NCBI RefSeq assembly: GCF_030816855.1
Contig: NZ_JAUSYK010000001.1
Span: forward strand, 3,545,761 to 3,609,760
Length of the DNA stretch: 64,000 nucleotides
From: Arthrobacter sp. B3I4
GTDB taxonomy: Bacteria; Actinomycetota; Actinomycetes; Actinomycetales; Micrococcaceae
Direction of reading: 5' to 3'
Made by a program: the position numbers and the translations under genes. This document shows, one piece after another, positions 766 through 16,925 of this stretch. Position 1 is the stretch's first letter. Each line of letters starts with the position of its first letter. The notes below the pieces were generated by a model that saw nothing but the letters and a program-made list of their open reading frames with translations, had not been told where the DNA came from and made no database searches.

Positions 766-1659
766 TCATAAATTCAGAGAAGCATGGGTGGCAAAATTCA
801 CGGAAGTATGCGCGTTGAAGGCCAGACAAGTCCTGCCGAGCAAAGCATCTACCGAAGCCTTGACGGCCAACGTCTCAGGCGCCCGAGCGGGGCGGACTAT
901 TCCAGCACCGTCGACCACAATATAGCCCCATTCGAACAAAGCATCACAACCCAGGTTGCAGACGAGCATGGCGGCAGAAAGATAATCAAGGCGCTCATTC
1001 TCACTACAACGGCTCCGCGGTTTGATATGGCCGGCGACCAGCAACCTTGCAGGCAGTTCCGCAGCGCAGATTGAGCATCGGCCGTGAGCCCTGCCTTGGA
1101 GCAAGTGTTGCCGAAGGTGAGCCTGTTCCGCTCGGACCTTCCGAAGGGCAGTCCTGTCCGTCTCCGCACCCCCCCAGAAGGAGTCCGGCCTGCCCAGAGA
1201 GCCGTCACCGCGAGTGAGGGTAACATGGTTTTGCAGCACAAAAGATAGGGCTGGAGACGCATCAAACTCTAGTCGGGACGCGTTAAGCAGCCAGAATCGA
1301 TCGTTCAACCATAGAGTCAAAAGTGTCTCGCCCCCGCCAACATAGCGGGGGATTCCGGGAAACCAAATTCTGCGATCTCCCCTTGTTCTTGCTCGATAAA
1401 GATTGGCCTTGGGCAAATCGACGGTATTGCCACCCAAGATGATACTTGCCGGGAGGCGACGACCATTCGTCTTCCCGTCCCAGGGCTGCTCGTCGTACTC
1501 ATGGATAGCAGGCTGAAGAAAGTCCCTAAATTCCTGGGTGGCATCTATGATCGAGTTACTTAGTCCATTTTCAGTCGGCTGCAGATAGCCGTAATCCACA
1601 CGGATACGTTCCAAGAACTCGGTATTTGCCTCTTCAAAGCTATTCAGCGGCCTTGGCAT
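766..1659 (-). CDS. HNH restriction-type endonuclease with an N-terminal domain shared with the MvaI-like enzyme
   Basis: Predicted 297-residue cytoplasmic nuclease. The C-terminal part (about residues 195-255) carries an HNH fold: CSICAAEL, then GHIKPRSRCSENERLDYLSA, then a CNLGCDALFEWGYI zinc/metal half, typical of HNH restriction endonucleases. Residues about 15-128 align closely with residues about 14-127 of the MvaI/BcnI-like enzyme at 3604-4854: FL.R..D.G.L.PT..GL, DAT.E.R.FL, H.YD.QP, GD.R.WF, LW..D..W.LNA. This shared block is probably a DNA-recognition module, perhaps EcoRII-N/B3-like (inference). The ATG at 1659 is preferred over the ATG at 1686 because GGGGAG lies five bases upstream. 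It is transcribed away from the methyltransferase. It may cleave modified or unmodified forms of the same site; its exact role is unknown. Confidence 0.8.
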   Translation of the reverse strand: MPRPLNSFEEANTEFLERIRVDYGYLQPTENGLSNSIIDATQEFRDFLQPAIHEYDEQPWDGKTNGRRLPASIILGGNTVDLPKANLYRARTRGDRRIWFPGIPRYVGGGETLLTLWLNDRFWLLNASRLEFDASPALSFVLQNHVTLTRGDGSLGRPDSFWGGAETDRTALRKVRAEQAHLRQHLLQGRAHGRCSICAAELPARLLVAGHIKPRSRCSENERLDYLSAAMLVCNLGCDALFEWGYIVVDGAGIVRPARAPETLAVKASVDALLGRTCLAFNAHTSVNFATHASLNL

Positions 1660-2228
1660 ACTAGCTCCCCGTATCATCGTCGCCATTCAGGATGATGAGT
1701 ATATGTGAAACAGCGCCTCTCACTTCTCAGGCTCTTCCGCGATCCATATGTGTCCCTAAAGGACCCAACGGATCCGTGACGGGAAGACAAGGAACAGGTA
1801 CGCCTCAAGCTGATCGGATCTGGGACTCTTATTAGGCGGGACCGCCCGGACGAAGAGCTGCCCCCCACTACACAATCGGATGCGTATCCACCGGACCGTC
1901 GAAGCCAGCGGCGGGCTGCCCTTATCGGCGACGTCAATCGCGTCCCACCGAGCACCTCCGCCGGGATGGGAGCAACATCGACTTCCTCTACCACCCCGTC
2001 GGACCAAGGCAAGAGATCCACGACGCGGGAAAATCCCAAACTTTTCAAGCCGAGAAACCGTGACACTCCTGCCCGCTCATAGCCTCGTCATTCGCCGTCT
2101 CCGCATGCCTGCGAGTGTGTTTGCTCACGTTCAGCCGCCCTCCGGCCCGGGCGAACAAGCCGACGACCGTCCCGAGCCAACTGGCCTTCCTGGACTTTGT
2201 CGTTGCCGTGCGGCACAATGTAGACGTG
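1660..2228. other. intergenic region between the HNH nuclease and the methyltransferase
   Basis: This 569-base stretch separates two divergently transcribed genes and presumably holds both promoters. Reading frames here lack coding character. A GTG at 2115 would extend the methyltransferase upstream, but the added residues do not look like part of that family. I see no tRNA, repeat or clear control-protein gene. Confidence 0.5.
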
Positions 2229-3626
2229 ATGAAATACGTAGACCTTTTCGCGGGCTGTGGTGGACTCTCCCTCGGCATCGAACGCGCCGGAGGAGAACTC
2301 GTCGTGGCCGTCGAAAAATCCGACATGGCCGCCCGGACCTTCTTCCATAACCTCGTAGACGACGCTTCTGACCTACATGCCTGGAACCAATACGTCGCAT
2401 CACCCGTCGAGGAACAGGTACGCCGTGGGGTGCTGGTCAGGGAACTCAACGTCCTGCTCGGTCAGGACTCCCTCATGGACAACCTCGCAGCCGAGGGAAT
2501 CGATTTGGTGGTGGGCGGTCCTCCCTGCCAGGGCTTCTCTCTGGCAGGGAGGCGGGATTCCGAAGACGTCCGTAACAAGCTCCCATGGGAATATCTGGAG
2601 TTCGTGGCCCGTACCAGACCGAAGGCAGTCGTCATCGAAAACGTTGTCGGCATGAACCAGAAATTCAGCTCACAGGACGAATCGTCGTTCGTACAACTGC
2701 AGCTGGCACTGGCCAGGACTGAACCGGGTTACACGGTCCAGGGTGTTCAGGTCAATGCCATGCATTACGGTGCGCCCCAACACCGGCCTCGCTTGATGAT
2801 CATCGCTGTGCGTTCGGACATCGCCGCATCGAAGGGCATCGAATCCACGGGCAAGCTCTGGAAATCGGATTTCCTCGACAAACTATCGCACCCGCTACCC
2901 GATCTGGCCCCGGTGCCCACCGTCTCCAGCGCTGACGTGAGGACCGTCGCCCAGGCTATTTCGGATCTTTCCCCTCACGCCCCGAGGGGCAATGGGCCCG
3001 CCAACAAGGACTATCGGCGTCAAATGCGCCACCCCGAATGGAAGCTGCGGCTCAAGCCCGGCCCGGAGGAACACAATCACGTACCCCGCAACCACGCGGC
3101 ACGCACCACGGAACGTTTCCGCCTCTATCAGTATCTGGCCAAGAGCGGTCTCGACCAGCGCATCATCAGCCGCGCGGCCATGTTGTCCGAGTCGGATGCT
3201 GCCCTGTACGTCAAGACACAGCTCGTGGACGCGCCCCTTCCCGCTCTAGCGCCTGATGGAACGGAGCTGGCGACAAGCGTGGACGAGTTGTGCCAGCTCG
3301 TCCAAAAGCTCGCAACCAAGAAGCACTCACAGAAAGTACTCGGCTGGAGTCAGCCGGCCCGCACCGTCGTAACGCTCCCTGACGACTATGTCCATCCGGT
3401 CGAGCCTCGCATATTCACGGTGCGCGAAATGGCTCGCTTTCAGGGATTCCCGGCGGCCTTCGAGTTTCTAGGCAAGGAAACCACGGGCGCTCATCGCCGC
3501 CGCGTGGAAGTACCGCAGTACTCGCAAGTAGGAAATGCAGTCTCTCCCTGGCTATCGTTAGCCGTAGGCAACCGGATAGCGGCACTTTTGGGGGAAAAGC
3601 GAAGTGAGGGAACTGACCGACCGTGA
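2229..3626 (+). CDS. DNA (cytosine-5) methyltransferase of a type II R-M system
   Basis: A 465-residue enzyme that transfers a methyl group from SAM to cytosine C5 in its recognition site. Motif I (VDLFAGCGGLSLG) is at residues 3-15. Motif IV contains the catalytic Pro-Cys (GGPPCQGFSLAG, about residues 95-106). Motif VI is the ENV after VVI. The C-terminal motifs IX/X include QPARTVV and QVGNAVSPW. The ATG at 2229 places motif I three residues from the N-terminus, normal for Dcm-type enzymes; the longer start at 2115 adds unrelated sequence. Its 3' end overlaps the restriction gene by 23 bases, so the two are co-transcribed and probably translationally coupled. The partner Vsr gene downstream fits C5 methylation, because Vsr repairs the T:G mismatches left by 5mC deamination. 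Confidence 0.93.
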   Translation: MKYVDLFAGCGGLSLGIERAGGELVVAVEKSDMAARTFFHNLVDDASDLHAWNQYVASPVEEQVRRGVLVRELNVLLGQDSLMDNLAAEGIDLVVGGPPCQGFSLAGRRDSEDVRNKLPWEYLEFVARTRPKAVVIENVVGMNQKFSSQDESSFVQLQLALARTEPGYTVQGVQVNAMHYGAPQHRPRLMIIAVRSDIAASKGIESTGKLWKSDFLDKLSHPLPDLAPVPTVSSADVRTVAQAISDLSPHAPRGNGPANKDYRRQMRHPEWKLRLKPGPEEHNHVPRNHAARTTERFRLYQYLAKSGLDQRIISRAAMLSESDAALYVKTQLVDAPLPALAPDGTELATSVDELCQLVQKLATKKHSQKVLGWSQPARTVVTLPDDYVHPVEPRIFTVREMARFQGFPAAFEFLGKETTGAHRRRVEVPQYSQVGNAVSPWLSLAVGNRIAALLGEKRSEGTDRP

Positions 3627-4854
3627 AGTAGAGAATATCGGCTTCCTTACCCGATACAGTCTGGACTTCGGGTTGTTGGAGCCGACCCTGACCGGTCTGG
3701 GCAAGGGAATCATGGACGCGACGGCGGAGTACAGGGCCTTCCTTAGCCGCCAGAAGATACATGACTATGATGCCCAGCCCAAAGGGCCAGACTACAAGCG
3801 CATGGTTTCAGCCAGGATTGTCACGCCGGCCGGCGACGTCATCGAGGCACCGGCGAGCATGTATCGGCCAGCCACCAAGAACGGCGACCCCCGCGTGTGG
3901 TTTTCACGGATGAAGCAGTATTGTGCGCCGGGAGACATACTCGTCAGCCTGTGGGTCGACGGTCACATCTGGGTGCTCAACGCTACCGGCGTCCGCTTTG
4001 GCGAGGCCGCGACTCGACTTAGCGCGTACAGCAAGTTGCTCCGCCCTCTGGTCAGCGGGAGGGAGAGCGTGTTCGAGGAACTCCTGGAGAAGCTACGCGA
4101 GATATCCGCGCGCGGATTCCTCCGCACCCTCAGGTCAGGCGACACAGGCATCGGCCATCTCCTCGAAACCGAGCTGGGCATCAAAGCGAATTCGAGCAAG
4201 AGCCCCGACTACAAGGGCGTCGAGATCAAGTCCACCCGCGGCACGGCAACCCGGACCCAAACACTTTTTGCCAAAGTGCCGGACTGGGATATTAGCCAAC
4301 TCCACAGCTCCCGGCAGATGCTGCAGGAGTTCGGCTACGACCGGGGCGACGACTTCAAGCTCTACTGCACGGTCAGCTCTAAAGCCTCCAATTCGCAGGG
4401 TCTAAGGCTTCAAGTGGACGATAAAGCGGGGTTCCTCCACGAGGCTTCGAATCGTCCCGCTCTGGGCCGTCCCGTGACATGGCGGCTCGACGGCCTACGC
4501 GACGCCCTTGCAGAAAAACATGCCGACACTTTTTGGGTCAAGGCAGAGTCCCGGAAAGATGCCACAGGGGAATCCATCCACTTTCAGTCCGTCATGCAAA
4601 CGACGAAGCCCATCCTGCAACAACTTGCCCCGATGTTAGCCGCCGGGACAATAACGGTAGATCACCTCATTTCCCGCAAGGGCAATAAAGTCACCGAGCG
4701 GGGGCCACTCTTTAAGCTGAACAGAAAGCACTTCGCCGATCTCTTCGCTCCTCCGATCTACCACGATCTTCGCGCGGACGGACGACGGCCGGCAGCACCG
4801 AAACATCCAATGGACGCCCTACTCATCGAGAAACCCTTTCACCTCTTCGATTAG
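3604..4854 (+). CDS. MvaI/BcnI-family type II restriction endonuclease
   Basis: A 416-residue PD-(D/E)XK nuclease. The catalytic core begins around residue 155. The segment TGIGHLLETELGIK leads into PDYKGVEIKS, giving D202-x4-E207-x-K209, the spacing of the MvaI active site. MvaI and BcnI themselves are about 240 residues and cut CCWGG/CCSGG. This protein carries an extra N-terminal domain (about residues 14-127), also found in the HNH protein at 766-1659. It starts at a GTG (3604) inside the end of the methyltransferase gene, preceded by a purine-rich stretch. Its stop overlaps the convergent vsr gene by 36 bases. The recognition sequence cannot be read from the protein; a CCNGG-like site is only an inference. 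Confidence 0.88.
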   Translation: MRELTDREVENIGFLTRYSLDFGLLEPTLTGLGKGIMDATAEYRAFLSRQKIHDYDAQPKGPDYKRMVSARIVTPAGDVIEAPASMYRPATKNGDPRVWFSRMKQYCAPGDILVSLWVDGHIWVLNATGVRFGEAATRLSAYSKLLRPLVSGRESVFEELLEKLREISARGFLRTLRSGDTGIGHLLETELGIKANSSKSPDYKGVEIKSTRGTATRTQTLFAKVPDWDISQLHSSRQMLQEFGYDRGDDFKLYCTVSSKASNSQGLRLQVDDKAGFLHEASNRPALGRPVTWRLDGLRDALAEKHADTFWVKAESRKDATGESIHFQSVMQTTKPILQQLAPMLAAGTITVDHLISRKGNKVTERGPLFKLNRKHFADLFAPPIYHDLRADGRRPAAPKHPMDALLIEKPFHLFD

Positions 4855-5250
4855 TTTCTGACCCGCGTTCACTTCACACTCCCAGACCACGAGTGACTCC
4901 CACCCGAGAGCCTCTAGCTGTTGGAGCGCTTTCTCATCGCGGCTCTGGTTGCGTCGACGTTTTTCGGCCCAAAACTCCGTGTTCGACTTCGGCAATCGAT
5001 CTCCAACCGAACACCGATGCCCATGCCAAAAGCAGCCGTTGACAAAGACCACTTTCCTGCGGCCCGCAAAGACAAGGTCGGGTTTGCCCGGGAGCCGCCG
5101 ATCGTGAATCCTGTACCGATACCCCGCAGTATGTAACGCCTTCCGAAGCAGGAGCTCGGGCTTTGTGTCCTTCGAACGAATCTTGGCCATATGTGCGCTG
5201 CGTTGCTTCGCGCTCATGAAGTCCGTCACAGATTCAATCCTAGTTTTCAT
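4819..5250 (-). CDS. vsr: very short patch repair (Vsr) DNA mismatch endonuclease
   Basis: A 143-residue protein with the whole Vsr signature: MSAKQRSAHMAKIRSKDTKPE at the N-terminus, GKPDLVFAGRRKVVFVNGCF with the catalytic Asp, then FWHGHRC zinc ligands, and SNTEFWAEK...N..RD. Vsr nicks 5' of the T in T:G mismatches made when 5-methylcytosine deaminates, so it protects the sites of the neighbouring methyltransferase from C-to-T mutation. The gene converges on the restriction gene and overlaps its last 36 bases. The length is normal for the family. Confidence 0.93.
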   Translation of the reverse strand: MKTRIESVTDFMSAKQRSAHMAKIRSKDTKPELLLRKALHTAGYRYRIHDRRLPGKPDLVFAGRRKVVFVNGCFWHGHRCSVGDRLPKSNTEFWAEKRRRNQSRDEKALQQLEALGWESLVVWECEVNAGQKLIEEVKGFLDE

Positions 5251-5492: not shown

Positions 5493-7583
5493 CTAAGCGC
5501 GCAGCACCTCGTCTTCGTCGATGGACGCCCTCCCGGCGTAGACATCGTCGTCCTCTTCCTCGTAGATGGGGGCGACCGTCGGAGCTATCCGCTCAGCGTG
5601 GCGGTTCCAGAATTTCAGGTCGAGGGAGACAGCGTCGAGGGTTTCCCATTCCTTATTCTCGAGGGTGAGTCCCTCTTTCTCGATGAGGCTTTCGCCGCTG
5701 GGCAGTTCAATGCTCTTGAGACGGTCGGTGATCTCCTTCAACGCAGCTGCCTCCTCGACCAACTTCCGGCGGTAGAGATCGCGTGCCACGTAGGGGTCAG
5801 AAGAGGGGTCGATCCGCGGGGACCAGTTTTCGTTCTTGTACCTGTACAGGTCGTCCGTGGTCAGAAGCGCACGGTCTGCGGCGCTGGCAGACCCGGCGGC
5901 TTCTCCGTCGAGCAGGCGCCGTGGCGCGCGGTCGCCCCGGACATCCACTACGATCTGGGCCAGCTGTTGGATCCCGTTCTCGCTCGCGACCATCTTCTGA
6001 ATAATCTGTTGCGGCTCGGGCATATACTCCCCGTTGACGCGCGTGTTGGACCGGATGAGCAGTGCGCCGCCTTCTCCGTCCTTCAGGCTCATCACGCCCT
6101 CGACTAGGCAATAGAGTCCGAGAGCGCCAAGCTCGGCGGCATCGGCGGAGACTTCCCTGCCATTGTCTTCGAAGATGGCCCGCTGCTCCCGGATCTTCTG
6201 GATGGCGGCGTCCCTGATGTCCAGGATCGGGCGACGGGTCAACAGAGCGTTCTTCAGGGTCGGTGTGGCAAGCACGCGCTGCACGGTTGAGCGCCGGCCC
6301 TTGAACCCGGAATCGAGCCCCTGACCGAGTGCAATCCTGTTCACGCGCATCGCGGTGTCCGCCGCCAGAGCCGCGCGTTCGGACTTCAGGGGCTTCTTGC
6401 CAGTGAGGGAGTGGACGGCCGTATTTACGACTCGGGCGCGCTTCGGGTCCAGCGGGGAGATCAGTGCCTCCGAAGCGAGGAGCAGAACCTCGTCGGGGTG
6501 CAGGCCGCTGAGGGATACCGCACCGGGGGACCCGGATTCGTCCTTACCGTTTTCAGACTGTAGGACTTTGAAGACCTCCTCCGCCGAGAGGCCGTCGACC
6601 GGAGGCATCATGTCCGCGGTGTGAACGGCCTCGAGCGCGATGCGCGCCTTGAGCGCATTCTCGGTGCTGTCAAGGAACGGCAGGGGCGGTTCAAGGTGGA
6701 TGTGTCCGACGAGGGAACGGCGAACTTCCGCGAAGGGCGGCTGGTTTTCGCCGGGGCGCAGCCCAATCTTGCGGTAACCGACGATGATCTGCGCGCGGGG
6801 CATGACACTGGAGCGAAGGCGAGCCGCTGCGATCTCGCCGGTCTCGCTCTCCACGTCCGCTTCCCCGGAGTCTCGAAGATCGATCAGTTCGTGCCTGAGT
6901 TTGTTCTCGGTGGCATCCCGCTGCAAGTCGAAAAGGACCTCGTCGATATCGATGCCGGATCCGCGTTGCGCGCCGACCGTGCGACTAAACCCGTCGGTGG
7001 CATCGAGGATGCCGATAGTGTCATTGTCACCCAGCGCGAGGCGGGTAATTGAAAGCAGCCCGGGGGTCTCGATGCCGCGCATCGGAATGGAGCGGGAATG
7101 CGGGTTCTTGTCCCAGATGCCCTTGGTCTGCGACCGCAGCGAACGAACAACGAAGTCGGGATCCTGGTTCGAAAGGCCGAGTACGGGCTGGCTGGAGAGC
7201 GGCGTCTCGTACCGCAACGCCTGCCCGGACTTCCAAGCGCGGTCCCCCTCAAAGCGGATGTTTTCCAGGGAGGGGACAATACGCCAAGTCACGACGTCGA
7301 CTTCGACGAAGGTGATTTCGTATTGGCCGTACCGGCGCGTCTGGGCCGACCGCGCGGCTTCCTTCAGCTGGCTTAGATCGGCGGCGGAGCGCGCAACCGT
7401 TTCAGCGTCGAATGCTTGCAGGTCAAATTCCCGCATCAGGAGCTCCACTGCGGCGGCTCGAGCCTTGACATTCTGGGTGCGGAGATTCGAGCACACCAGA
7501 TCGTAGGGCGTCGCGTACTCGTTGTTCTCCCGGCTCTGTTCGAGGTGGCGGGCTACTGTGGCTGCGCGATTTCTTTCGGACAT
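5493..7583 (-). CDS. large unknown protein with a ParB/DGQHR-like motif
   Basis: A 697-residue protein that I do not recognise as a named family. The ATG at 7583 (MSERNRAATVARHLEQSREN) is preferred; an in-frame start at 7745 adds low-quality sequence. Around residue 200, SRSIPMRGIETPGLL is followed by IGILDATDGFSRTVGAQ. This resembles the pattern of ParB/sulfiredoxin-like and DGQHR-domain proteins (DndB, ParB-type nucleases), where a conserved DGxxR follows a P-x-x-V strand. The rest is mostly alpha-helical, with a very acidic C-terminus (EEEDDDVYAGR). There is no signal peptide or membrane segment. It sits between the R-M cassette and a helicase remnant, so a role in DNA defence or as an accessory subunit is plausible but unproven. 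Confidence 0.6.
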   Translation of the reverse strand: MSERNRAATVARHLEQSRENNEYATPYDLVCSNLRTQNVKARAAAVELLMREFDLQAFDAETVARSAADLSQLKEAARSAQTRRYGQYEITFVEVDVVTWRIVPSLENIRFEGDRAWKSGQALRYETPLSSQPVLGLSNQDPDFVVRSLRSQTKGIWDKNPHSRSIPMRGIETPGLLSITRLALGDNDTIGILDATDGFSRTVGAQRGSGIDIDEVLFDLQRDATENKLRHELIDLRDSGEADVESETGEIAAARLRSSVMPRAQIIVGYRKIGLRPGENQPPFAEVRRSLVGHIHLEPPLPFLDSTENALKARIALEAVHTADMMPPVDGLSAEEVFKVLQSENGKDESGSPGAVSLSGLHPDEVLLLASEALISPLDPKRARVVNTAVHSLTGKKPLKSERAALAADTAMRVNRIALGQGLDSGFKGRRSTVQRVLATPTLKNALLTRRPILDIRDAAIQKIREQRAIFEDNGREVSADAAELGALGLYCLVEGVMSLKDGEGGALLIRSNTRVNGEYMPEPQQIIQKMVASENGIQQLAQIVVDVRGDRAPRRLLDGEAAGSASAADRALLTTDDLYRYKNENWSPRIDPSSDPYVARDLYRRKLVEEAAALKEITDRLKSIELPSGESLIEKEGLTLENKEWETLDAVSLDLKFWNRHAERIAPTVAPIYEEEDDDVYAGRASIDEDEVLRA

Positions 7584-8200
7584 GAAAAAGCCTCTCGGGC
7601 TAGCTGGGACCGGAGTCCCGACCGTAACCGCTCTGGTTCCGGCTTCGGGTAGCCCGCCGAGGCGAGTAACCCATATAGGCTCGGACACCCAGATGGGTGC
7701 CATGGAGCACATGGGGCACGCACTTCCCGATCGGCGTTCAGTCACCCATGCTTACGGTCCGGCCGGAGCTGGAGCGCTTCGCGTGTACTGACTTGGTCGT
7801 TCCCCGCTTACTGGAAAGTACGTGTCATGCATCTCATAAGTTAGGACATAAGCCCTTTCCCGTCAATGGCACCGGGCGTCGCGCCGCGAGGCCCGGTGCC
7901 ATAGGCGGCCCCGGCGACGGCTGCTGCCCTGATCGGTGCAAACTCGGATGCCCGGCCCCGGCCTTACCGCAACCCCCTACGGCGTGGCGCCACATCGAGT
8001 GGCTCCCAAAGCTTGACGACCACGGGATTCCCGGCAGGCTGCTCGTCGAGTGAGAGCAACTAATTCGCGTTTTTGGACCGTCCAGCAGCGGGGTCCACCT
8101 GAGTCTCGAGCTGCGGACCGGAGGTGTCAGATCCGGAGTTGCAGCCGGGACCGTCAGGCTTTGGCATGCAGGCGGGTGGACTAGCTTTCGTCATTCATCT
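7584..8200. other. intergenic stretch with one perfect hairpin
   Basis: No credible gene is visible here. A perfect 10-bp inverted repeat (GGCACCGGGC at 7868-7877 and its complement at 7891-7900, 13-base loop) could act as a terminator or a remnant end. It has no T-tract on either side. The region probably includes the promoter of the unknown gene ending at 5493. Confidence 0.4.
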
Positions 8201-8497
8201 TCACTTCCACGCCGTGGGGTTTGACGGGCCCGGTTCGGCGATGGCAGTGGTCCCGTGGCGTTCCGTGGCGCCCATGTAGGTGGTGGTGATAACACGCAGT
8301 CTGGCCCCGCGTTCCTTGACCCGTTGCAGAGCTGGCTCCAGGAGCCTCAGTCCGGTCCAGCGGACGAAGGCGCAGAGCAGGTCCACCGTGTTGGCAGACT
8401 TGGTCTCGGTCCTGAGCTCTGCGGCGAAGTTGGGATCGTCCTTGTTGTTGGTGAGCAGGGCGGAGTCGCTCAGCATCGTGGTGGGCCGGTGGAAAAC
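8201..8497 (-). pseudogene. fragment of a DUF3427-type helicase: N-terminal PLD-like nuclease domain
   Basis: The minus strand encodes LSDSALLTNN, then ELRTETKSANTVDLLCAFVR, then RVITTTYMGATE. This is the hallmark start of the PLD-like domain that precedes the DEAD/DEAH helicase core in large DUF3427 proteins. Both ends are missing. Before this there should be about 100 residues more, and after GATE the sequence turns into unrelated residues where the HKD motif and helicase should follow. It is therefore a truncated remnant of a protein of about 1000 residues. The 8498-8752 gap downstream of the ATPase gene holds nothing further that I can identify. Confidence 0.7.
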
Positions 8498-8752
8498 TGG
8501 AACTGGGCAACTGACGAACTGCCCCTCGCCGAATATACCTAGTCACTTCGCTAGGCTAATTGGTGGCGGCGACGAATGCAGCGCCAGCCAGCTCGTGTTG
8601 TTATATTGACCGTTTGCTCGAAATCTTCACTGGGGATGTAAGACGTAACCCAACCGCCTCGCGCCCGAGGCTGGTGGACAAAAACTTCACCACCAGCCTC
8701 GAGCACGCCCGCGCTGCACACAGGAATCGACGCCGCGTGCGAAGAATTTGGA

Positions 8753-10342
8753 CTATCCCGACAGGTACTCATAGACTGCGGCGTGAGCTGCGTTGTGCAT
8801 TCTGGAAGCCCGTACTGGCCCAATGTATGGAGCTGCCTTCAGAACTCCCACGTCAGCCTTTAGAACATCTCCGATTGTCCTGAGGCCCACACTCCCCATT
8901 GCCGTCCTCATGAAATCAGAAAGGTCCAGCACGTTCAGCGAGCGGCCGAGTTGTTCCTGAACTGAAGCATTCGGCTGGCTGAAGGCCAAAGACTCATCCT
9001 CGACAAGCGATCCGTAGAAGGGGTGTTTAGCTCCATATTCAATCATTCTCTTCAATGATAAGCTGTCCATGATGCTAGCTCCAAACTTGATTGGAGAACT
9101 ATCCAGAGAAAACTGACATCCAAGATTTAGAATATACCGAGTGCCAATTTCGCTTCGCGTTGCTTTAATCCCAGCCGTTCCTTCTTGAAGGATGCCGCTG
9201 TAGCAAAGGAGTCGTAACGACTCCTTCACAGCAGCTGGTGCATCGCGGTGAATCCAAAGATACGAAGACGTTGCGCCAGGGTTCCTCAGGTTACGCGCAT
9301 ATAAAGCTGGTAGCACTTCCTGCTCAATAAATCGCCGACCCCACGATATGAGCGGCTCATGACCAGGATATTTATCGGCGAGCAGAGAATGCTCGGACCA
9401 AATCTCCTCTCGATAGTAATTCCGGAAGATTAGCTCTGCACTGGCTGTATTAATCTTGCTCATGGTCTGCATCGTTTTCAGCAGTATTCGCGGATTGCCG
9501 GTAGCAGCGTATGCCAAGACATCAAATACCTGCCCATTCCGCTTGATATCGGAGATAAGCTCTGGCGCCTGCTTGAAAACGATTTCGCGCAGTTGCTCTC
9601 GATATTCTGGATCACTAACATTCCTGTCTACAGACACAAATGTCGCATCATGCTGCGGCTGAAAGTATTCCCCGAACGATGTGACGCCCGGATAGACGGC
9701 GGCCTTTACGGCCAAGTAGGCACTTCGAAGAGATCTCATGAGCGTGAAAAACTCACGCTGTTGCGCGGGTATGAAGACATGTGCCGCTTCATCGATAAGA
9801 ATTATTGTGCGAGTCAGATTATTTTCTTCAGAAAACTCCTGAAGGGCTTCAAGAAACAACTCGGGATCCGGCGCCTCGGCCAGGTCAGGATCGGCACCTT
9901 CATTGCGCCAGGAGTTTTCATAATCTACCGCCAATCTCTCCATCACCGACACACCGCTTTGGTCCCTGTTTGCCAGGCGATCAAGTGAGGAACCGACTCG
10001 TAAAGCCAAACCAAACTCGCTAGCGGACTTGAGAAAACTTGCCGCTATCCTCGACATCATCCAGGCACGGAACTTTTCTGGAGTTGGGTTCGAAATGAGT
10101 GTAGCAACGGCGAAAGTTACATAGACTGGCATTATGCGTTTAACCGCAAAGTCTTGCCGCAGGCGCTGCTCCGCAACACGCATTAAGAATGACTTCCCGA
10201 CGCCACGACTGCCCTCAAGTACGGCCGGCGTTCGCCCCAAAAGGGCATCAATCACTTTATCGTCAGCAACACCTTTTACATAGTATTCCAAGACTTCATC
10301 ACGCCGGAAGTCTTCAGTCCTGAAGAGAAAGTCACTGGCCAT
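8753..10342 (-). CDS. P-loop (ORC/AAA-like) ATPase of a two-gene candidate defence operon
   Basis: A 529-residue soluble ATPase. Walker A is GSRGVGKS at residues 44-51 and Walker B is IILIDEAAHVF at 180-190, with D184 and E185. The overall order (short N-terminus, P-loop, helical lid, then a winged-helix-like middle) resembles ORC/Cdc6 or STAND-type AAA ATPases. The last ~45 residues (IGDVLKADVGVLKAAPYIG) look like a helix-hairpin-helix DNA-binding tail. The start overlaps the upstream partner gene by 11 bases, so the two are co-translated. Base composition is clearly more AT-rich than the flanking genes, which suggests recent transfer. The function is not known to me. The partner is HEPN-like, a combination common in abortive-infection systems. 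Confidence 0.7.
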   Translation of the reverse strand: MASDFLFRTEDFRRDEVLEYYVKGVADDKVIDALLGRTPAVLEGSRGVGKSFLMRVAEQRLRQDFAVKRIMPVYVTFAVATLISNPTPEKFRAWMMSRIAASFLKSASEFGLALRVGSSLDRLANRDQSGVSVMERLAVDYENSWRNEGADPDLAEAPDPELFLEALQEFSEENNLTRTIILIDEAAHVFIPAQQREFFTLMRSLRSAYLAVKAAVYPGVTSFGEYFQPQHDATFVSVDRNVSDPEYREQLREIVFKQAPELISDIKRNGQVFDVLAYAATGNPRILLKTMQTMSKINTASAELIFRNYYREEIWSEHSLLADKYPGHEPLISWGRRFIEQEVLPALYARNLRNPGATSSYLWIHRDAPAAVKESLRLLCYSGILQEGTAGIKATRSEIGTRYILNLGCQFSLDSSPIKFGASIMDSLSLKRMIEYGAKHPFYGSLVEDESLAFSQPNASVQEQLGRSLNVLDLSDFMRTAMGSVGLRTIGDVLKADVGVLKAAPYIGPVRASRMHNAAHAAVYEYLSG

Positions 10343-11075
10343 TTTCGGTCCTTGGGGTTTCGAGAATTTTTCTTACCGACGGCAAATGTGCAATTGTTTC
10401 CAACATAGTGTTTTCAACACTACCGCTATCACTGGGTAAGAGTTCTTGACCATAGCGGCTAAAAAAGAGTACTTGGACGCATTCGATCGCATCGCTGGCC
10501 AGCTTACACCACTGCTCCAAGGTATTCTGTGAATAGACAAGCTGACTGGGGATTGTGCTTGTCGATGACTCTTTTCCGTGAATGAACTGCGAGCAGTCCC
10601 GGTACACTGCAGCGGCTTTGGCTTTGTACGACTGAGCATCAACGACTGCAGACTGATTGAAGGCTCCGACAAAGTCACTGGAAAGTACTCCGTCTGCTTC
10701 ATTAAGCGCGGCAGACCATGAGAAGTCATACGAATCAGCTAGCCATTTCCGGCGCTTTAGTTCATTTGCAGAGAAGAAGATGGCAGCGAAGCTCAGTTCC
10801 AAGTACAGGCGCAAACCCGCAAACGCTGCCCCATAGTGACCGCCACAGGCCAGATAAATGGCACGCCCAAACTCACGACGGCCGTTAATTATGAGCGTCC
10901 CCTCCGGCTCATTTGTTAGGAGGTCTTCCCATGCCTTCATTGCATGGTCCAAACTGAGCAATCTACCTACGGATCCGCGCTGTTCCCTTAGCGCCTCATC
11001 AATTACACCTTTCTGATTCTCTTGAATCTTAACGAAGATGTCATCGATGGTTCCAACGGGTGAACCTTGGGCCAC
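10332..11075 (-). CDS. HEPN-like partner protein of the ATPase
   Basis: A 247-residue, mostly alpha-helical soluble protein. The segment YRDCSQFIHG contains R159 and H166 with six residues between them, matching the Rx4-6H motif of HEPN ribonucleases and the similar helix of DUF5677-like proteins. Upstream lies a helical pair including GGHYGAAFAGLRLYLELSFA. No membrane segment or signal peptide is clear. It is the first gene of a two-gene operon and overlaps the ATPase by 11 bases. Like the ATPase it is AT-richer than the genome. The HEPN assignment rests on one motif plus predicted helicity. Alternatively it is a non-catalytic adaptor. Confidence 0.6.
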   Translation of the reverse strand: MAQGSPVGTIDDIFVKIQENQKGVIDEALREQRGSVGRLLSLDHAMKAWEDLLTNEPEGTLIINGRREFGRAIYLACGGHYGAAFAGLRLYLELSFAAIFFSANELKRRKWLADSYDFSWSAALNEADGVLSSDFVGAFNQSAVVDAQSYKAKAAAVYRDCSQFIHGKESSTSTIPSQLVYSQNTLEQWCKLASDAIECVQVLFFSRYGQELLPSDSGSVENTMLETIAHLPSVRKILETPRTENGQ

Positions 11076-11477
11076 TTTTTAGCCTTTCGCGAGGAGACAA
11101 ACAAGAAGTAATGTACTACCGATGTGCTGGAAAATATCTTTCGACCCGCGCGGCGCACTTGAGGATGGCACCCGTGGCGGCGGCGCGCCTGACGGACAAC
11201 TCGCCTTTCGGGCTCCCAAATGTGGGTCGAAGACCAAGGTCCATGTCACCGATGCCTACAAGGCGTGTACTCTCCGCGCAAGATTTTCCTGTCCTTCCCG
11301 AGGTAAGACGGTGCGAAGCCGGAGTCTTTCGTCGCGTGATGGGCGGCGCTCGGCCTGAGGTCCGGGAGTCAACTACTGCCTGCTGCCTGCCGCCTGGCGG
11401 CTTTGGAGTAATCCCTCAGAATCCGTTGCTTTGTGCGAATATTCACCTTTGACACTCGAAGGTGACGCCGAAAGCTT
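11076..11477. other. intergenic region upstream of the HEPN/ATPase pair
   Basis: About 400 bases with no frame that looks coding. It separates the low-GC minus-strand pair from the plus-strand HhH remnant and presumably holds both promoters. No repeat or tRNA was seen. Confidence 0.4.
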
Positions 11478-12061
11478 GTGGTCTGCATGGACTGTCTTGG
11501 ACCAGAGGCCTCAGCTGAACGCACTAGGGGTGAAAGTATCGGCGCCATCGTTGTCGACGCCGTGCTGCAAAAGCGGCAAAACTACGCCGCGACGGTCAGA
11601 CCCCGTGTAGCTGCGGTCGTGGAAGGGTGGCCCGACGCCCTCACGACGGCGGGATTTCGTCGGCGGCTGGACACCGAAAAGCTGTCTGAAGTCATCAGCT
11701 GGTCGGGGCCGGCACGACTGACACCAAATAGAACGCATTACCAGCGTTCTGGAACACGAGAACATTTCCATTGAAACTGTGTAGGAACTCCGGCGCAACC
11801 TTGAGGATCCAGCCATGAGAACCCCTCTACGCAAGGCACTCCGGGGAGTGCGGCACGTCGGGCCCAAGACACTGGACTACTTCGACATTCTCTGCGGCAT
11901 CTTCCACGGGAGTTGCGATCGATTTGCGGATACGTCGAAGGGCCGAAGCGGCTGGCATCGATGATTTGTCCTATGATCATCTCGCCGCTGTCATACACCG
12001 AGCTGCGCTGCGCCGCGGCTGGCGACCCGGAGACCTGGACGCCGCACTATGGGACGGCTAG
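11478..12061 (+). pseudogene. broken gene for a ~190-residue helix-hairpin-helix protein
   Basis: The product can be followed across three reading frames. The first piece runs to SGPARLTP (about 11,725). One extra base then shifts the frame to IERITSVLEHENISIETV, followed by an in-frame TAG near 11,783 and ELRRNLEDPAMR...GVRHVGPKTLDYFDIL. A second shift near 11,905 moves to VAIDLRIRRRAEAAGIDDLS, which ends with RRGWRPGDLDAALWDG and a TAG at 12,061. The VGPKTLDY segment is a helix-hairpin-helix of the kind found in DNA glycosylases and related proteins. Two indels plus one stop make it non-functional unless the lesions are sequencing errors. It ends 11 bases before the PD-(D/E)XK gene, so the two once formed an operon. 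Confidence 0.72.
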
Positions 12062-12072
12062 AGAGTGCACAC

Positions 12073-12501
12073 ATGAACAGAATACCGATTAGAGATCCGG
12101 AACGACTACTAACCGAGGATGAAGTTGTTGCCGCTGTCCTAGGCCACCTTTCAAATGCTGGGTGGAACATCGCGAGTTGGGCGCTTGCCACGGAACATGG
12201 AGTCGACCTTGTTGCCGAGCAGGTCGGCCGGCGTCTACTCGTGGAGGCCAAAGGAGAGGGGAGCTCCAAGGCTGGAAGTGCAAGATTCGGTAGTCCGTTC
12301 ACGAGTAGTCAGGTCAGCAGCCACGTTTCCCGTGCCATTTATAGGGCACTGTGTGCGCTTGCCGAGAACGAAGAAGCCGCAGTCGCCTTCCCTGACACAC
12401 CACGGCATCGGGCGATGGTAAGAAGTGTGCAGCCCGTGATCTCACGTTTAAGAATTTCAGTCTTTTGGGTGGATCGAACAGCGTCTGTCACAGTCGAGTA
12501 G
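12073..12501 (+). CDS. small PD-(D/E)XK nuclease-like protein
   Basis: A 142-residue soluble protein. D45 in EHGVDLVAE, followed by E58 and K60 in RRLLVEAKGE, gives the D...ExK metal-binding pattern of PD-(D/E)XK nucleases. A conserved-looking Gln/helix (FTSSQVSSHVSRAI) follows, as in Mrr/restriction-like folds. The ATG at 12,073 is 11 bases after the end of the HhH remnant. A longer start at 12,049 would lie inside that gene. With its upstream partner destroyed it may be an orphan. It could be a nuclease or an inactive relative; the substrate is unknown. Confidence 0.6.
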   Translation: MNRIPIRDPERLLTEDEVVAAVLGHLSNAGWNIASWALATEHGVDLVAEQVGRRLLVEAKGEGSSKAGSARFGSPFTSSQVSSHVSRAIYRALCALAENEEAAVAFPDTPRHRAMVRSVQPVISRLRISVFWVDRTASVTVE

Positions 12502-12689
12502 AGACCTCGGTATGGACAACGTTATGGAAGCAGCGCCACTCGATCGAAGTAATGAACCCACGGCGACTTCCTTGGTTCCAGTTAGTCCATGAGACGCCAC
12601 CCTAGATTCCCCCCGTTGAAACGCCAGGCCTACTTCACGCCCGCCCCGCCCCACACGGTTTGTACCATCTAGAGCTTGATTGGCCCTGC

Positions 12690-12766
12690 CAAGGCCATCA
12701 TGCTGAGCTGGCGCGGTTCAGGGCTGCGCCGGGTGGGCGGGCCAACGTCGTTGTCTGTTGTTCCAT
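12690..12766 (-). pseudogene. remnant copy A of an amino-acid permease N-terminus
   Basis: From an ATG at 12,766 the minus strand reads MEQQTTTLARPPGAALN, then a one-base deletion moves the homology to PRQLSMMALAG. This matches the cytoplasmic start of APC-family amino-acid permeases and the better preserved copy at 13,701. The DNA at 12,693-12,780 is an imperfect direct repeat of 13,626-13,715, including the bases upstream of both ATGs. The gene is cut off after about 27 codons. The flanking bases 12,502-12,689 and 12,767-12,996 hold no other gene that I can identify. Confidence 0.6.
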
Positions 12767-12996
12767 GACGATTCCTCTGCCGGAGCACGTCCACCGTCCG
12801 AGCGGTATGGTGGAACGAGTGGATGAACGCGACGAACGGGGTGTCCGCTGATCCACTTTGCTTTCGCGCTCTCTCCCGTTCCTTGTTTGTGCGTGCAATC
12901 ATCGCCGCAAACCTCATGGGCCATTCGTTCTCGGTCCCGTCTGCCTAGGATAGGCAGGCGGCACCAACGCCGAACAGCGACCATTCAAGGGGACAA

Positions 12997-13278
12997 GTGG
13001 AACAACACGCAGTACCGCAGATCATGACAGCCTTCATTAGCTCCGATGGTAAGGAGTGGCAGGACGAGTACGGTGAAGTGACGCCGGTATCTGGGCAATT
13101 CATCTATAGAGGAACTGGCAACGGCTACCAGGCCTACAGGATCGCTGAGGTCTGGCTAGTTGAGGAAAAGCGAGGCCCAGTAACCCACGGACTCACCGTT
13201 TTCCTCGACCCGGTCGACGTGATGGAGACTCGCCTCGGCCAATATTCACCAGAATATTACGGAAACGGAGGATTCTAG
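12997..13278 (+). CDS. small hypothetical protein
   Basis: A 93-residue protein that I do not recognise. It starts at a GTG (12,997) preceded by AAGGGGA at a suitable distance; an internal ATG at 13,024 is the alternative. It has beta-strand character (GQFIYRGTGNGYQAYRIAEV), no signal peptide and no membrane segment, and ends in a Tyr/Gly-rich tail (SPEYYGNGGF). It stands alone between two permease remnants. Its good ribosome-binding site and clean frame suggest it is expressed. Confidence 0.5.
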   Translation: MEQHAVPQIMTAFISSDGKEWQDEYGEVTPVSGQFIYRGTGNGYQAYRIAEVWLVEEKRGPVTHGLTVFLDPVDVMETRLGQYSPEYYGNGGF

Positions 13279-13399
13279 CCGTGGGAGAACAACACCGTAT
13301 CGGTCAGTTTCGAACGAAACCAGAGTTCGCATAAGAACCGCCGGCGCCAGCAACGGGTGCCCTTCTTGTAGGCGTCGCAGTCCGCCTGGCCGCCCACTT

Positions 13400-13701
13400 C
13401 TTGTCGGCCTTCTTTTCCGGCGGCGGGATGCCGCCGCCCTAGATCAGCAGCAGGGTCACGAACATCGGCGACAGCAGGGGCACCCGCTGCCAGCCCGCCA
13501 AGCGCCCACATCATCAGGATGCCCGCGACGAGGTAGGAGATCAGCACCGCCGGGCCGGCGGCCTGGATGCCGGCGCGCTGGATGCCGGCGGGCTGGATGC
13601 CGGCGCGCGCCAGTCGCGGCGCCCAGGCCCATCATGGTGAGCTGCCGGGGTTTTAGGGCCGCGCCGAGCGCGCGGGCAGACCTCTTTGTCTGTTGTTCCA
13701 T
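13400..13701 (-). pseudogene. remnant copy B of an APC-family amino-acid permease
   Basis: From the ATG at 13,701 the frame reads RALGAALKPRQLTMMGLG, the standard start of APC permeases. A frame change and a 15-bp repeat expansion follow. The first membrane hairpin continues in another frame as AAGPAVLISYLVAGILMMWA. After about residue 60 all similarity is lost. The rest of the ~450-residue carrier is absent. The remnant lies immediately downstream of the HisC remnant on the same strand. Confidence 0.68.
13563..13607. repeat. three tandem 15-bp repeats inside the permease remnant
   Basis: Units at 13,563-13,577, 13,578-13,592 and 13,593-13,607 share CTGGATGCCGGC plus a three-base G/C end. 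Read on the minus strand each unit encodes xAGIQ, which is the GAGIQ turn of the permease amplified in frame. This is replication slippage within a dead gene. Confidence 0.8.
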
Positions 13702-13769
13702 GGGGATTCCTCTGGTTGTAGGCGGAACGGAGTGAAGGGTTGGGGTAAGTCAGTTGTCTGCCCGCGTGG

Positions 13770-14312
13770 GCTGCCAGAAGCCGGAGCACGCGGTCGTTTG
13801 GCGGCGGGGTCGGCCACGGTGATGCGAACGCCGTCGCCCTGATACCCGCGCACCAGAATGTCTGCGCGGTCAAACGCGTCCACCAGCGTCGCCCGAGGGT
13901 GTCATCGGCACGGATCCACAGGAAGTTGCCTTGGCTTGGATACAGTTACCAGCCCTGCGCTTCCAGCTGCGCGGCCACCTGTGCGCGCTCCTGCTTGACG
14001 GCTGCCACCCGCGGTTCACCTCGTCCCCGGCGTCCAGCGACGCGATCGCGGCCTTCTGGGCCAGCGCACTCACCGAAAAGGGAAGCGCGGTGCGGCGCGG
14101 TTCCTCCGCGATGGCCGGCGCGGCCACGGCGTAGCCCCGGCGGTAGAGCGCCAGGGAATCGGGGCCGCTGCCCGCTTCGGCGCATTCCACGTAGGCCTCG
14201 TCGACCACCACGAGGATGTCGGAGCGGCGGGCTCCAGGAAGGCCTCGAAGCCCTCGTGGTTGATCGGCACTCCGGTGGGGTAGCCGGGGTTGCAGAGCAC
14301 CTTTCGGAAAGA
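13770..14312 (-). pseudogene. C-terminal remnant of a HisC-like (class I/II) aminotransferase
   Basis: Pieces in three frames spell VLCNPGYPTGVPINHEGFEA, then SDILVVVDEAYVE, then SLALYRRGYAVAAPAIAEEP, then ALPFSVSALAQKAAIASLDA, RVAAVKQERAQVAAQLEAQG and ILVRGYQGDGVRITVADPAA. These are in HisC order. The first ~150 residues are missing. The segment between ALYRR and GYAVAAP, which should contain the FSKAYGLAG loop with the PLP-binding lysine, is deleted. At least three frame changes occur. The broken N-terminal edge lies just before the operators of the sugar operon, so the operon promoter now occupies the place of the lost 5' half. Confidence 0.75.
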
Positions 14313-14330
14313 TCGGCTGACCACCCCCCC

Positions 14331-14419
14331 GTTTACGAAACGCAACGCGATCCGCAACCCACCCCTTACTGTTGATCCTGCGCGCAACGAAACCGTTTAC
14401 GTAAACCGTTTGCGTAACG
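14331..14419 (+). promoter_or_regulatory. cluster of LacI-type operators upstream of the alpha-glucoside operon
   Basis: Three CG-centred palindromes are visible: GTTTACGAAAC at 14,331-14,341, the perfect GTTTACGTAAAC at 14,395-14,406, and GTTTGCGTAAC at 14,408-14,418. LacI-family regulators bind such sites. Their position 54-142 bases before the LacI start codon suggests autoregulation and control of the downstream genes. Confidence 0.75.
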
Positions 14420-14472
14420 CGCCCAACAGCAAGCGGGCCAGCACCCGCAGGAACCCTCAGAGAGGAGGAACA

Positions 14473-15477
14473 GTGGTCACCATCCGCGATGTCGCCAAGC
14501 ACGCAGGCGTCTCCCCGGCCACTGTTTCCCGGGTGGTCAACGGTTTGGTCGGCTACTCCGACGAAACGCGCGAACGCGTCGAGAACGCGGTCAAAAGCCT
14601 CTCCTACGAAACGGACTACCTCGCCCGGGGCCTGAAGACCCGGCAGACCTCCGTCATCGGGCTCCTCGCCCCGATGGTCTCCGACGCCTTGGCCTCCCAG
14701 GTAATGCAGGGCGTCGAGGAGGAAGCCCAGGAACGCGGCTACGCCGTCATGCTCGGCCGCACCGGCGCCAGATCCGCCTACATCGCCGGCTACCTCCGCA
14801 CCCTGCGCACCTACCGGGCCGCCGGCGTCATCCTCATCTCCGCGGTGATCACGCCGGAGACGCGGCAGCTGCTCGGCCCCAACGTCCCGATTATCTCCGT
14901 CGCCATCAGCGACAAGTCGGGTTCGCCGAGCGTCGCCATCGACGACGAGCAGGCAGCCTACGACGCCACCCGTCACCTGCTGCGGCTCGGCCACCGGCGC
15001 ATCGGCCTGCTGGCCGGCGACCCGGCGTCGATCTACGTCGCCCAGCCCCGGAAACGCGGCTACCTCCGCGCCATGACCGAAGCGGGCTGCAACCCGGTCA
15101 CCGCCACCGGCAGCTTCTTCTACGAAAGCGGCGCCGCCGGAGTCGACGAACTCCTGCAGCAGGACCCCGGGCTCACCGCGATCTTCGCGATGAGCGACGA
15201 GATGGGCGCCGCCGTCGTCAACGAACTGCAGCGGCGCGGACTCCGGGTGCCCGAAGACGTCTCCGTCCTGGGCTTTGACAACACCTCCACCTCCCGGCAC
15301 GTGAACCCGCCGCTGAGCACCATGGCCCAGCCGCTGGAGGAGATGGGACGGATGGCCGTGAAAAAGCTGCTCCGCTCCCGCGACCTCGGGCCGAAGATCA
15401 TGCCGCACACGCTGGTCGAGCGCGGCTCCACCGCGCCGCCGCCTGCAGAGTCGTCGAACAAGATACCCAGCGGCTGA
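14473..15477 (+). CDS. LacI-family transcriptional regulator of the alpha-glucoside operon
   Basis: A 334-residue repressor. The N-terminal helix-turn-helix and hinge are visible in TIRDVAKHAGVSPATVSRVV, followed by a periplasmic-binding-protein-like ligand domain (VIGLLAPMV, DDEQAAYDATRHLLRLGHRR, VLGFDNTS). The start is the GTG at 14,473, with AGGAGG seven to ten bases upstream; longer in-frame starts would run through the operators. It heads an operon with a sugar-binding protein, two permeases and a GH13 enzyme, so its effector is probably an alpha-glucoside or breakdown product (inference). It probably binds the sites at 14,331-14,419. Confidence 0.92.
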   Translation: MVTIRDVAKHAGVSPATVSRVVNGLVGYSDETRERVENAVKSLSYETDYLARGLKTRQTSVIGLLAPMVSDALASQVMQGVEEEAQERGYAVMLGRTGARSAYIAGYLRTLRTYRAAGVILISAVITPETRQLLGPNVPIISVAISDKSGSPSVAIDDEQAAYDATRHLLRLGHRRIGLLAGDPASIYVAQPRKRGYLRAMTEAGCNPVTATGSFFYESGAAGVDELLQQDPGLTAIFAMSDEMGAAVVNELQRRGLRVPEDVSVLGFDNTSTSRHVNPPLSTMAQPLEEMGRMAVKKLLRSRDLGPKIMPHTLVERGSTAPPPAESSNKIPSG

Positions 15478-15599
15478 CCAAGACCACCCACCCCCAAGGC
15501 GGCCGGCACAGGAGCGCACCACCGCTGCGCCCCGCACCGGCCGCCGCAGTTTCGCACGCACCACACACCTCGCACAAATCAGATAACAAGGAGCAACAC

Positions 15600-16925
15600 A
15601 TGAGGCAGCGCCGCCGCACCTGGCAGACTCTTCTCACCACCACCGCCACGCTCACCGTGGCCGCCACCGCCCTCACCGGCTGCGGCGGATCCGGATCCGC
15701 ACCGGAAGCGAAGAGCACCCCGAAGGCGTCCGCAGCGTCCTTCGAGGGCAAGGGCCCCATCAACTACGTCTCCAACCGCGACGCCTCCGGCGCCGCGAAC
15801 AAGAGCATCGAGGAATGGAACGCCGCCCACCCGGACGAGAAGGTCACCTTCATCGAACTGCCGGACTCCGCGGACGCCCAGCGCCAGCAGCTGATCCAGA
15901 ACGCGCAGATCAAGTCGGACACCTTCAGCGTGCTGAACCTCGACGTCGTCTGGACCTCCGAGTTCGCCGCGAACAAGTGGATCATGCCGCTGCCCGCGGA
16001 CGCCGTCCCCACGGACAAGATGATCCCGGCCACCGTCGATGCCGCGAAGTACCGCGACACCCTGGTCGGCGCCCCGTACTACACCGACGGCGCGCTGCTC
16101 TACTTCCGCTCCGACCTGCTCAAGGCCGCCGGCATCGCCGCCCCGCCGAAGACCTGGGACGAGATGAAGACCGCCTGCAAGGCCATTCTGGCCCTCCCTG
16201 AGGCCGCGGGCATGTCCTGCTACGCCGGCCAGTTCGACAAGAACGAGGCCCTCACGGTCAACTTCTCCGAGGCGGTCGCCTCCGCCGGCGGCAAGATCGT
16301 CGACGCCGACGGCAAGCCCACGGTGGACACCGCCGAGGCCAAGAAGGGCCTGAACCTGCTGGTGGACGGCTTCAAGGACGGGATGTTCCCCTCCGACGCC
16401 ATCACCTACCTCGAGGAGCAGGGCCGCCGCGCGTTCCAGGACGGCAAGGTCGTCTTCCTGCGCAACTGGCCCTTCGTCTACGCCTCACTGACCGCCACCG
16501 ACGGCTCCAGCAAGGTCAACGGCAAGTTCGACATCACCTCCATCCCCGGCACCGACGGCCCCGGCGTCTCGACCCTGGGCGGCCGCAGCCTGGCGATCTC
16601 CCCGTTCACCCCGAACAAGGCCACGGCACTGGAGTTCGTCAAGTTCTTCACCAGCCAGGAGCAGGCCCAGAAGCGCCTGGCCCTGTCCTCCCGCGCCCCG
16701 GTCTACGGCGCCCTCTTCGGGGATCCCGCCGTCGTCGCCAAGCGCCCGTTCTTCCCCACCCTGCTGAAGTCGCTGAACAACGCCCAGCCGCGCCCGAAGG
16801 TGGTCCAGTACGGCGCCACCACCAAGGCGATCCAGGAAGAGGCCTACGCCGCGATCACCGGCAAGAAGGACACGGACACCGCGCTGAAGGACATGCAGAC
16901 CAAGCTCACCGAGCTGGCCAAGTAA
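15600..16925 (+). CDS. ABC sugar transporter substrate-binding lipoprotein
   Basis: A 441-residue extracellular solute-binding protein (family 1, maltose/trehalose type). It has a signal peptide with a lipobox ending in LTGC around residue 27, followed by a low-complexity linker. The mature part has the usual features, with WTSEFAANKWIMPL, an NWPFVYAS segment and a C-terminal EEAYAAITGK repeat region. It is the first structural gene after the regulator. A strong hairpin follows it, which would let it be made in excess over the permeases. Confidence 0.92.
   Translation: MRQRRRTWQTLLTTTATLTVAATALTGCGGSGSAPEAKSTPKASAASFEGKGPINYVSNRDASGAANKSIEEWNAAHPDEKVTFIELPDSADAQRQQLIQNAQIKSDTFSVLNLDVVWTSEFAANKWIMPLPADAVPTDKMIPATVDAAKYRDTLVGAPYYTDGALLYFRSDLLKAAGIAAPPKTWDEMKTACKAILALPEAAGMSCYAGQFDKNEALTVNFSEAVASAGGKIVDADGKPTVDTAEAKKGLNLLVDGFKDGMFPSDAITYLEEQGRRAFQDGKVVFLRNWPFVYASLTATDGSSKVNGKFDITSIPGTDGPGVSTLGGRSLAISPFTPNKATALEFVKFFTSQEQAQKRLALSSRAPVYGALFGDPAVVAKRPFFPTLLKSLNNAQPRPKVVQYGATTKAIQEEAYAAITGKKDTDTALKDMQTKLTELAK

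Follow-up and report, generated by a model that had tools for sequence, protein, structure and literature searches.

A VcaM4I-family HNH nuclease bearing a B3 domain beside a B3-MvaI restriction-modification system in Arthrobacter sp. B3I4

Two unrelated nucleases with homologous B3 domains are encoded around one DNA methyltransferase in Arthrobacter sp. B3I4. One is an MvaI/BcnI-family restriction enzyme. The other is an HNH nuclease whose catalytic body has relatives that carry an EVE domain where the B3 domain sits. This B3-HNH protein is a variant of two known kinds, the B3-fused restriction enzymes and the VcaM4I-family HNH endonucleases. The reading favored here, at a probability of about one half, is that a type IV nuclease body has been re-aimed by a B3 domain; it would then be an accessory second cutter directed to a site, with the single methyltransferase as protection. 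The window, i.e., the whole stretch of 64,000 nucleotides analyzed, is the end of a single-contig genome of 3.61 Mb.

The restriction-modification locus

The methyltransferase of the restriction-modification (R-M) system is a C5-cytosine enzyme encoded at 2229..3626 on the forward strand, with matches to PF00145 (5e-46) and TIGR00675. The start is read at 2229; the family-library scans covered 2235-3626. It is clustered with the MvaI_BcnI enzyme, as in type II R-M systems. The restriction enzyme (3604..4854, forward, 416 aa) has its B3 domain at the N-terminus (3604..4008). The Vsr mismatch endonuclease is encoded at 4819..5250 on the reverse strand (PF03852, 2e-31; TIGR00632, 7e-43). Together these three make up an ordinary type II R-M system, to which the HNH enzyme would be accessory.

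The B3-HNH gene is located at 766..1659 on the reverse strand and encodes 297 aa, or 306 aa with a start at 1686. It was recognized from its open reading frame, a BLASTP match to the MvaI-type B3 and an HNH match to VcaM4I and TagI. On the same strand, the B3 domain occupies 1249..1656, and the HNH body, together with a conserved stretch preceding it, occupies 769..1212.

UbaLAI is composed of a B3 domain and an MvaI-like domain. EcoRII, a type IIE enzyme, and UbaLAI resemble the protein of 3604-4854 in carrying B3 N-terminal to the restriction nuclease, and the order of domains is that of UbaLAI. By domain order only, it is a putative type IIE (EcoRII/UbaLAI-like) enzyme. The solved chains of MvaI and BcnI (249 and 238 residues) match only its C-terminal part. 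Unlike EcoRII and UbaLAI, the window has a second B3 domain, on an HNH enzyme.

The MvaI-type B3 is widespread, with 174 confirmed places in the genome_contigs collection. Eighty loci were kept, mostly Bacteroidota by title, and in all 80 the B3 is joined to an MvaI-type domain (in L076, split over two frames). A methyltransferase is also present in 79 of them, within 500 bases in 72 and at 1.7-2.3 kb in seven; the one remaining locus begins at a contig end. Genome composition gave no target. Site statistics used 400 kb from each of three genomes with the R-M system and 200 kb from each of four without it (no match to alignment A5). Among 78 testable palindrome-type motifs, counted from the depleted end, CCWGG ranked 15th and CCSGG 49th, and no clear depletion of a CCNGG-type site was observed between these three and four genomes.

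Two B3 domains on unrelated nucleases

The preliminary description of this DNA proposed that the HNH and MvaI/BcnI-like proteins have a common N-terminal domain and unrelated catalytic domains, and both points are borne out. The N-terminal domains align over ~130 residues with 53 of 133 identical (40%; BLASTP E 2e-26), and the catalytic domains are unrelated. A profile built with both copies has two matches in the whole genome, both at this locus. In predicted structures, the MvaI-type copy models well and adopts the B3 fold known from EcoRII-N, LlaJI, and BfiI. The HNH protein is modeled poorly across its B3 half (pLDDT 75, pTM 0.48), and its B3 assignment follows from homology to the well-modeled copy. 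The fold check proposed earlier is thus answered by modeling for one copy and by homology for the other. No PDB chain is convincingly similar by sequence to either B3 subgroup. Both copies are predicted sequence-specific DNA readers.

Residues kept in both subgroups include T29, G32, D39, A40, R45, H53, and Q58 (297-aa numbering of the HNH protein), among others, and further common residues are Y88, R89, G94, D95, R97, W99, and N126. Other positions separate the MvaI type (44 rows) from nine actinobacterial companion B3 domains on other nuclease bodies, the window HNH copy among them. In the numbering of the MvaI-type protein, K34 and K65 are present in all 44 MvaI-type rows and are each changed in eight of nine companions. 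K92 is present in 42 of 44 and is arginine in every companion. P89 is alanine in all nine, and P96 is arginine in eight. T40 is changed in eight companions, but the window HNH protein keeps it. The altered positions are in or near loops that probably contact DNA. Because the companions differ at K34, K65, K92, P89, and P96, they may read another target than the MvaI type does, or a target in another modification state. Alignment A1 is made up of the window protein and 52 of 64 other MvaI-type proteins, and A6 of 11 of 17 slices.

The HNH body and its VcaM4I-like relatives

The HNH protein has 105 protein matches, 98 without B3 and seven with it. Only two are B3-HNH proteins, the window's own and P0002, which has 66% identity to the query and covers 96% of it. 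The HNH body matches VcaM4I and TagI in sequence alignment. Most of the 98 relatives without B3 have a VcaM4I-like N-terminus by eye; for P0103, the sole relative compared, the alignment with VcaM4I is full-length (E 1e-22). Two other matches, P0020 and P0067, carry MrcB_N. As a separate observation, P0105, an HNH protein of the same family, has a BRCT-like N-terminus by eye, an apparent further reader swap.

Within the genus (206 genomes), the HNH body has matches at 25 places outside the window. An EVE domain was found by a home-made profile at all 23 places that were fetched of these 25, once in split frames; Pfam called EVE in none of the members scanned. The window HNH protein matches the B3N profile and has no match to the EVE profile. 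In 61 of the 98 relatives, similarity to the window protein begins at residue 145-159 (297-aa numbering), which places B3 at the position of EVE, with the stretch just before the HNH body retained. The EVE, HNH, MrcB_N, PD, Dcm, and Vsr labels of loci all come from home-made profiles; Pfam served as a check on MrcB_N in five proteins, and a PDB comparison as a check on one EVE-HNH member.

The catalytic histidine, aspartate, and second acidic residue are all present in the window HNH domain. H224, D250, and D254 of VcaM4I, named in passages of PMC7897488, align with H220, D248, and E252 (306-aa numbering). Conservation across 100 rows is 98% for H220 and 100% for D248. E252 is invariant in alignments of 13 and 18 rows and falls below the 93% cut in the large alignment. 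Cysteine residues are conserved in the HNH relatives alongside the catalytic residues. The equivalent of VcaM4I N241, whose change had only mild effects according to the same passages, is not conserved. These alignments place the window HNH body in the VcaM4I (EVE-HNH) family of modification-dependent endonucleases.

VcaM4I (PDB 6YEX) thus resembles the window protein in its HNH body and catalytic residues, the last being glutamate in the window, and in having an N-terminal sensor followed by HNH at a similar length. It differs in its sensor, an EVE domain described in PMC7897488 as flipping 5mC/5hmC, where the window protein has B3. A further difference is that a methyltransferase gene adjoins the B3-HNH gene. 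No report of a B3-HNH fusion was found in searches of the open-licence PMC literature.

The fusion could be an incidental chimera of neighboring defense-island genes with no maintained function. The searches found only the window protein and P0002, and no B3-HNH was found in the genome-contig and plasmid scans; the HNH protein has matches in 15 plasmid records, and no match extends over 80% of its length. This explanation is improbable in light of the similarity of P0002 over nearly the whole window protein, the conserved catalytic and cysteine residues, and comparable grafts on other bodies next to R-M systems of this type.

Companion B3 domains in other genomes

The genus search found a B3 of this family in seven of 206 genomes, with two copies only in the window genome and G863. 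The second B3 of G863 is joined to a PD-(D/E)XK-like (PD) nuclease, beside a methyltransferase, a B3-MvaI enzyme, and Vsr. A third case is L011, a Flavobacteriales contig, where B3 with NOV_C (PF13020, 4e-9) directly follows B3-MvaI and is ended by the contig end. L011 is the one such locus among 79 B3-MvaI loci searched for a second B3. The survey of co-occurrence suggested earlier therefore extends the arrangement beyond this locus, and the two-nuclease pattern is recurrent, though rare. Its presence with a different cutter in a related genome hints that bacteria re-aim such nucleases by grafting a reader.

Two side observations concern gene order. L011 has two genes between its methyltransferase and B3-MvaI (2531-4829). 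Inserted open reading frames between R-M genes form two clusters, each in six of 79 loci.

Genome context is known for two actinobacterial companions (window and G863), and each is within 4 kb of a B3-MvaI gene. Protein searches, which return proteins without context, gave five B3-MrcB_N-PD proteins (P0016, P0039, P0058, P0074, and P0167) and one B3-PD protein (P0062). The source contigs of P0058 and of P0119, a B3-MvaI protein, have the same length (13,028), which hints at one contig; the pair was not counted. The D, E-x-K, and Q residues are typical of PD-(D/E)XK nucleases, and the PD-(D/E)XK reading rests on their invariance in alignment A8; the PD-like body of the L109 companion and of P0062 has no Pfam match.

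MrcB_N is retained in five of seven PD-bodied companions, and PD bodies without B3 carry it in both places examined (L226 and L259). According to passages of PMC7641849, MrcB_N (DUF3578) is the specificity module of Escherichia coli McrB, which restricts modified cytosine. With EVE on the HNH relatives and MrcB_N on the PD relatives, the companion B3 is borne by two bodies whose relatives carry modified-base readers.

Ten genomes of the family, which we take to be Micrococcaceae from the taxonomy of Arthrobacter, have B3-MvaI: the window genome, G529, G610, G666, G752, G757, G758, G817, G863, and G884. Eight of them have no second B3 match, and the companion is thus optional to this R-M type. 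The order sample (396 genomes) gave matches in the window genome only, and the class sample (394 genomes) gave one further B3-MvaI gene (G908) and no companion. In genome_contigs, 26 pattern matches to the companion B3 yielded none confirmed. In viral contigs, the companion alignment matched one weak fragment, where gene calling suited to GC-rich DNA found no B3 gene; the B3-PD protein query gave no match, and the MvaI-type alignment gave six matching loci.

A B3 domain on yet another body is found at L096 (G633, same family), on a protein with a P-loop-like motif that adjoins a similar methyltransferase. This B3 keeps K34, T40, and K65. The fetched stretch of L096 has no MvaI-type gene beside the methyltransferase. 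From 5905 to 16000, the methyltransferase is followed by the 814-aa B3/P-loop-like protein, which has only sub-threshold Pfam matches, then a 479-aa protein and a long, truncated open reading frame that matches DndH weakly where it breaks off. A possible role of the L096 B3 is to give specificity to a DndFGH-like machine. The B3 family is a portable module across MvaI, HNH, PD-(D/E)XK-like, NOV_C, and P-loop proteins.

A separate lineage of companion B3 domains

A tree was made from 55 hand-picked B3 domains with a midpoint root; 20 of its 51 inner forks are open, and the L011 row is very long. A single clade (support 99/95) unites the nine actinobacterial companions, whose bodies are HNH, PD, or MrcB_N-PD; in it the window HNH copy groups with the eight others. 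The L096 B3 is placed next to this clade (88/87). Companions and L096 nest among actinobacterial MvaI-type B3 domains with only moderate support. The two B3 copies of G863 are 26% identical to each other, and its companion is 50% identical to that of the window. Together, the clade and the low identity within G863 indicate that the companion B3 is a separate lineage on different nuclease bodies and not a fresh copy of its neighbor.

A local origin, in which the HNH gene received a duplicate of the MvaI-type B3, was considered and rejected, since companions of different loci group together and the G863 pair shows so little identity. The earlier picture of one recognition module on two cutters keeps its homologous modules, unrelated cutters, and single methyltransferase. 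A common site for both copies stays conjectural; the HNH copy belongs to a distinct lineage with changed loop residues.

A proposed re-aimed nuclease and competing explanations

In the favored reading, the EVE domain of a VcaM4I-like HNH nuclease would have been replaced by a B3 domain related to that of the restriction enzyme. Passages of PMC7897488 describe HNH bodies of VcaM4I that dimerize and are held inactive by sensor and linker. By analogy, the HNH bodies of the window protein may dimerize and be kept inactive in the same manner. Binding of B3 to its unmodified target would free them, and they would cut within or close to that site. The single methyltransferase would, by methylation, keep B3 off host DNA, and the cell could bring two unrelated catalytic folds to bear on one site or on related sites.

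This reading is supported by the B3 homology and fold, the VcaM4I-family body, the EVE domains of its relatives, the MrcB_N of the PD relatives, the recurrence of companions beside the same R-M type, and the L096 B3 next to a similar methyltransferase. A precedent that also supports it is LlaJI, described in passages of PMC12707154 as a relative of McrBC whose B3 domain reads an unmodified site and whose own methyltransferases protect it. LlaJI, like the window protein, bears B3 on a nuclease of a modification-dependent family; unlike the window system, it is NTPase-driven, has an asymmetric site, and lacks a separate MvaI-type enzyme. Counted against re-aiming are the changed companion residues, the retained MrcB_N, the optional pairing, the finding of only two B3-HNH proteins in the searches, the lack of any hint of the target in genome site counts, and the weak model of the B3 half.

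The main competing explanation is that of a site-matched type IV enzyme. Here the companion B3 would read the R-M site only when its cytosines bear a foreign modification that stops the MvaI-like enzyme, e.g., hydroxymethylation or glucosylation in phage DNA, and HNH would be a backup against modified phages. The preliminary description had raised a backup against altered phage DNA, which fits the VcaM4I-family ancestry. The modification-dependent origin of the body, the modified-base readers (EVE and MrcB_N) on the same or partner bodies, and the divergent companion loops speak for it. So does Arthrobacter alkaliphilus (G757, locus L009), a genome with no second B3 match in which an EVE-HNH gene stands apart, ~2 kb past the Vsr of the same R-M type; a GmrSD_N-HNH gene lies between the two. 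The B3-HNH protein, however, lacks a modified-base reader, which points rather to unmodified sites. No prokaryotic B3 is known to read a modification. The B3 of LlaJI reads unmodified DNA (passages of PMC12707154). A site-matched type IV enzyme is rather unlikely, although, given the changed loops and the MrcB_N of five PD-bodied companions, the companion may read a modified target. A broader form, in which B3-MvaI systems recruit type IV nucleases by grafting their own kind of reader and the companion B3 is specialized for a phage-altered site, is doubtful. If true, one locus would cover plain and modified versions of a site with two catalytic folds.

A companion that binds the R-M site but does not restrict alone, acting as an accessory subunit or regulator, is improbable. 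It could assist the MvaI-like enzyme, compete with it, or nick DNA on its behalf, or it could avoid cutting host-methylated DNA. An allosteric effector role is described for the N-terminal domain of EcoRII in passages of PMC4081073, and five companions combine B3 with MrcB_N, as though a second condition had been added. Passages of PMC8989522 also describe conflict between type II and type IV enzymes in one cell, the CCNGG system PcaRCI and the HNH enzyme PcaRCII. The conserved catalytic residues and the several nuclease bodies suggest instead that cutting is selected. Under re-aiming, swapping a modified-cytosine reader for B3 would remove such a conflict with the resident m5C methyltransferase.

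Re-aiming suggests a modular route by which a modification-dependent nuclease becomes site-directed, namely by exchanging its modified-base reader for a relative of an R-M reader. Two cutters with one methyltransferase also provide an experimental pair for asking whether they are redundant cutters against phage counter-defense or matched backups against modified DNA.

Neighboring genes

A ~700-aa protein of unassigned function is encoded at 5493..7745 on the reverse strand and has no match above cut-off in Pfam, NCBIfam, or PADLOC. Its family adjoins the methyltransferase/B3-MvaI set in six of ten loci of the bacterial family, window included, and the homologs in the other five loci are 44-77% identical. 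The protein is a candidate R-M-associated component and is counted outside the two-nuclease pair. In two genomes, a common multi-gene module adjoins the R-M system (L109 778-7428, reverse; L112 11475-18202, forward), with proteins of about 200, 1090, and 920 aa; in L109 the 920-aa protein is split. Near the R-M locus of the window, 8753-10342 on the reverse strand has an ORC-CDC6-like match (PF24389, 1e-10) and is possibly another defense gene.
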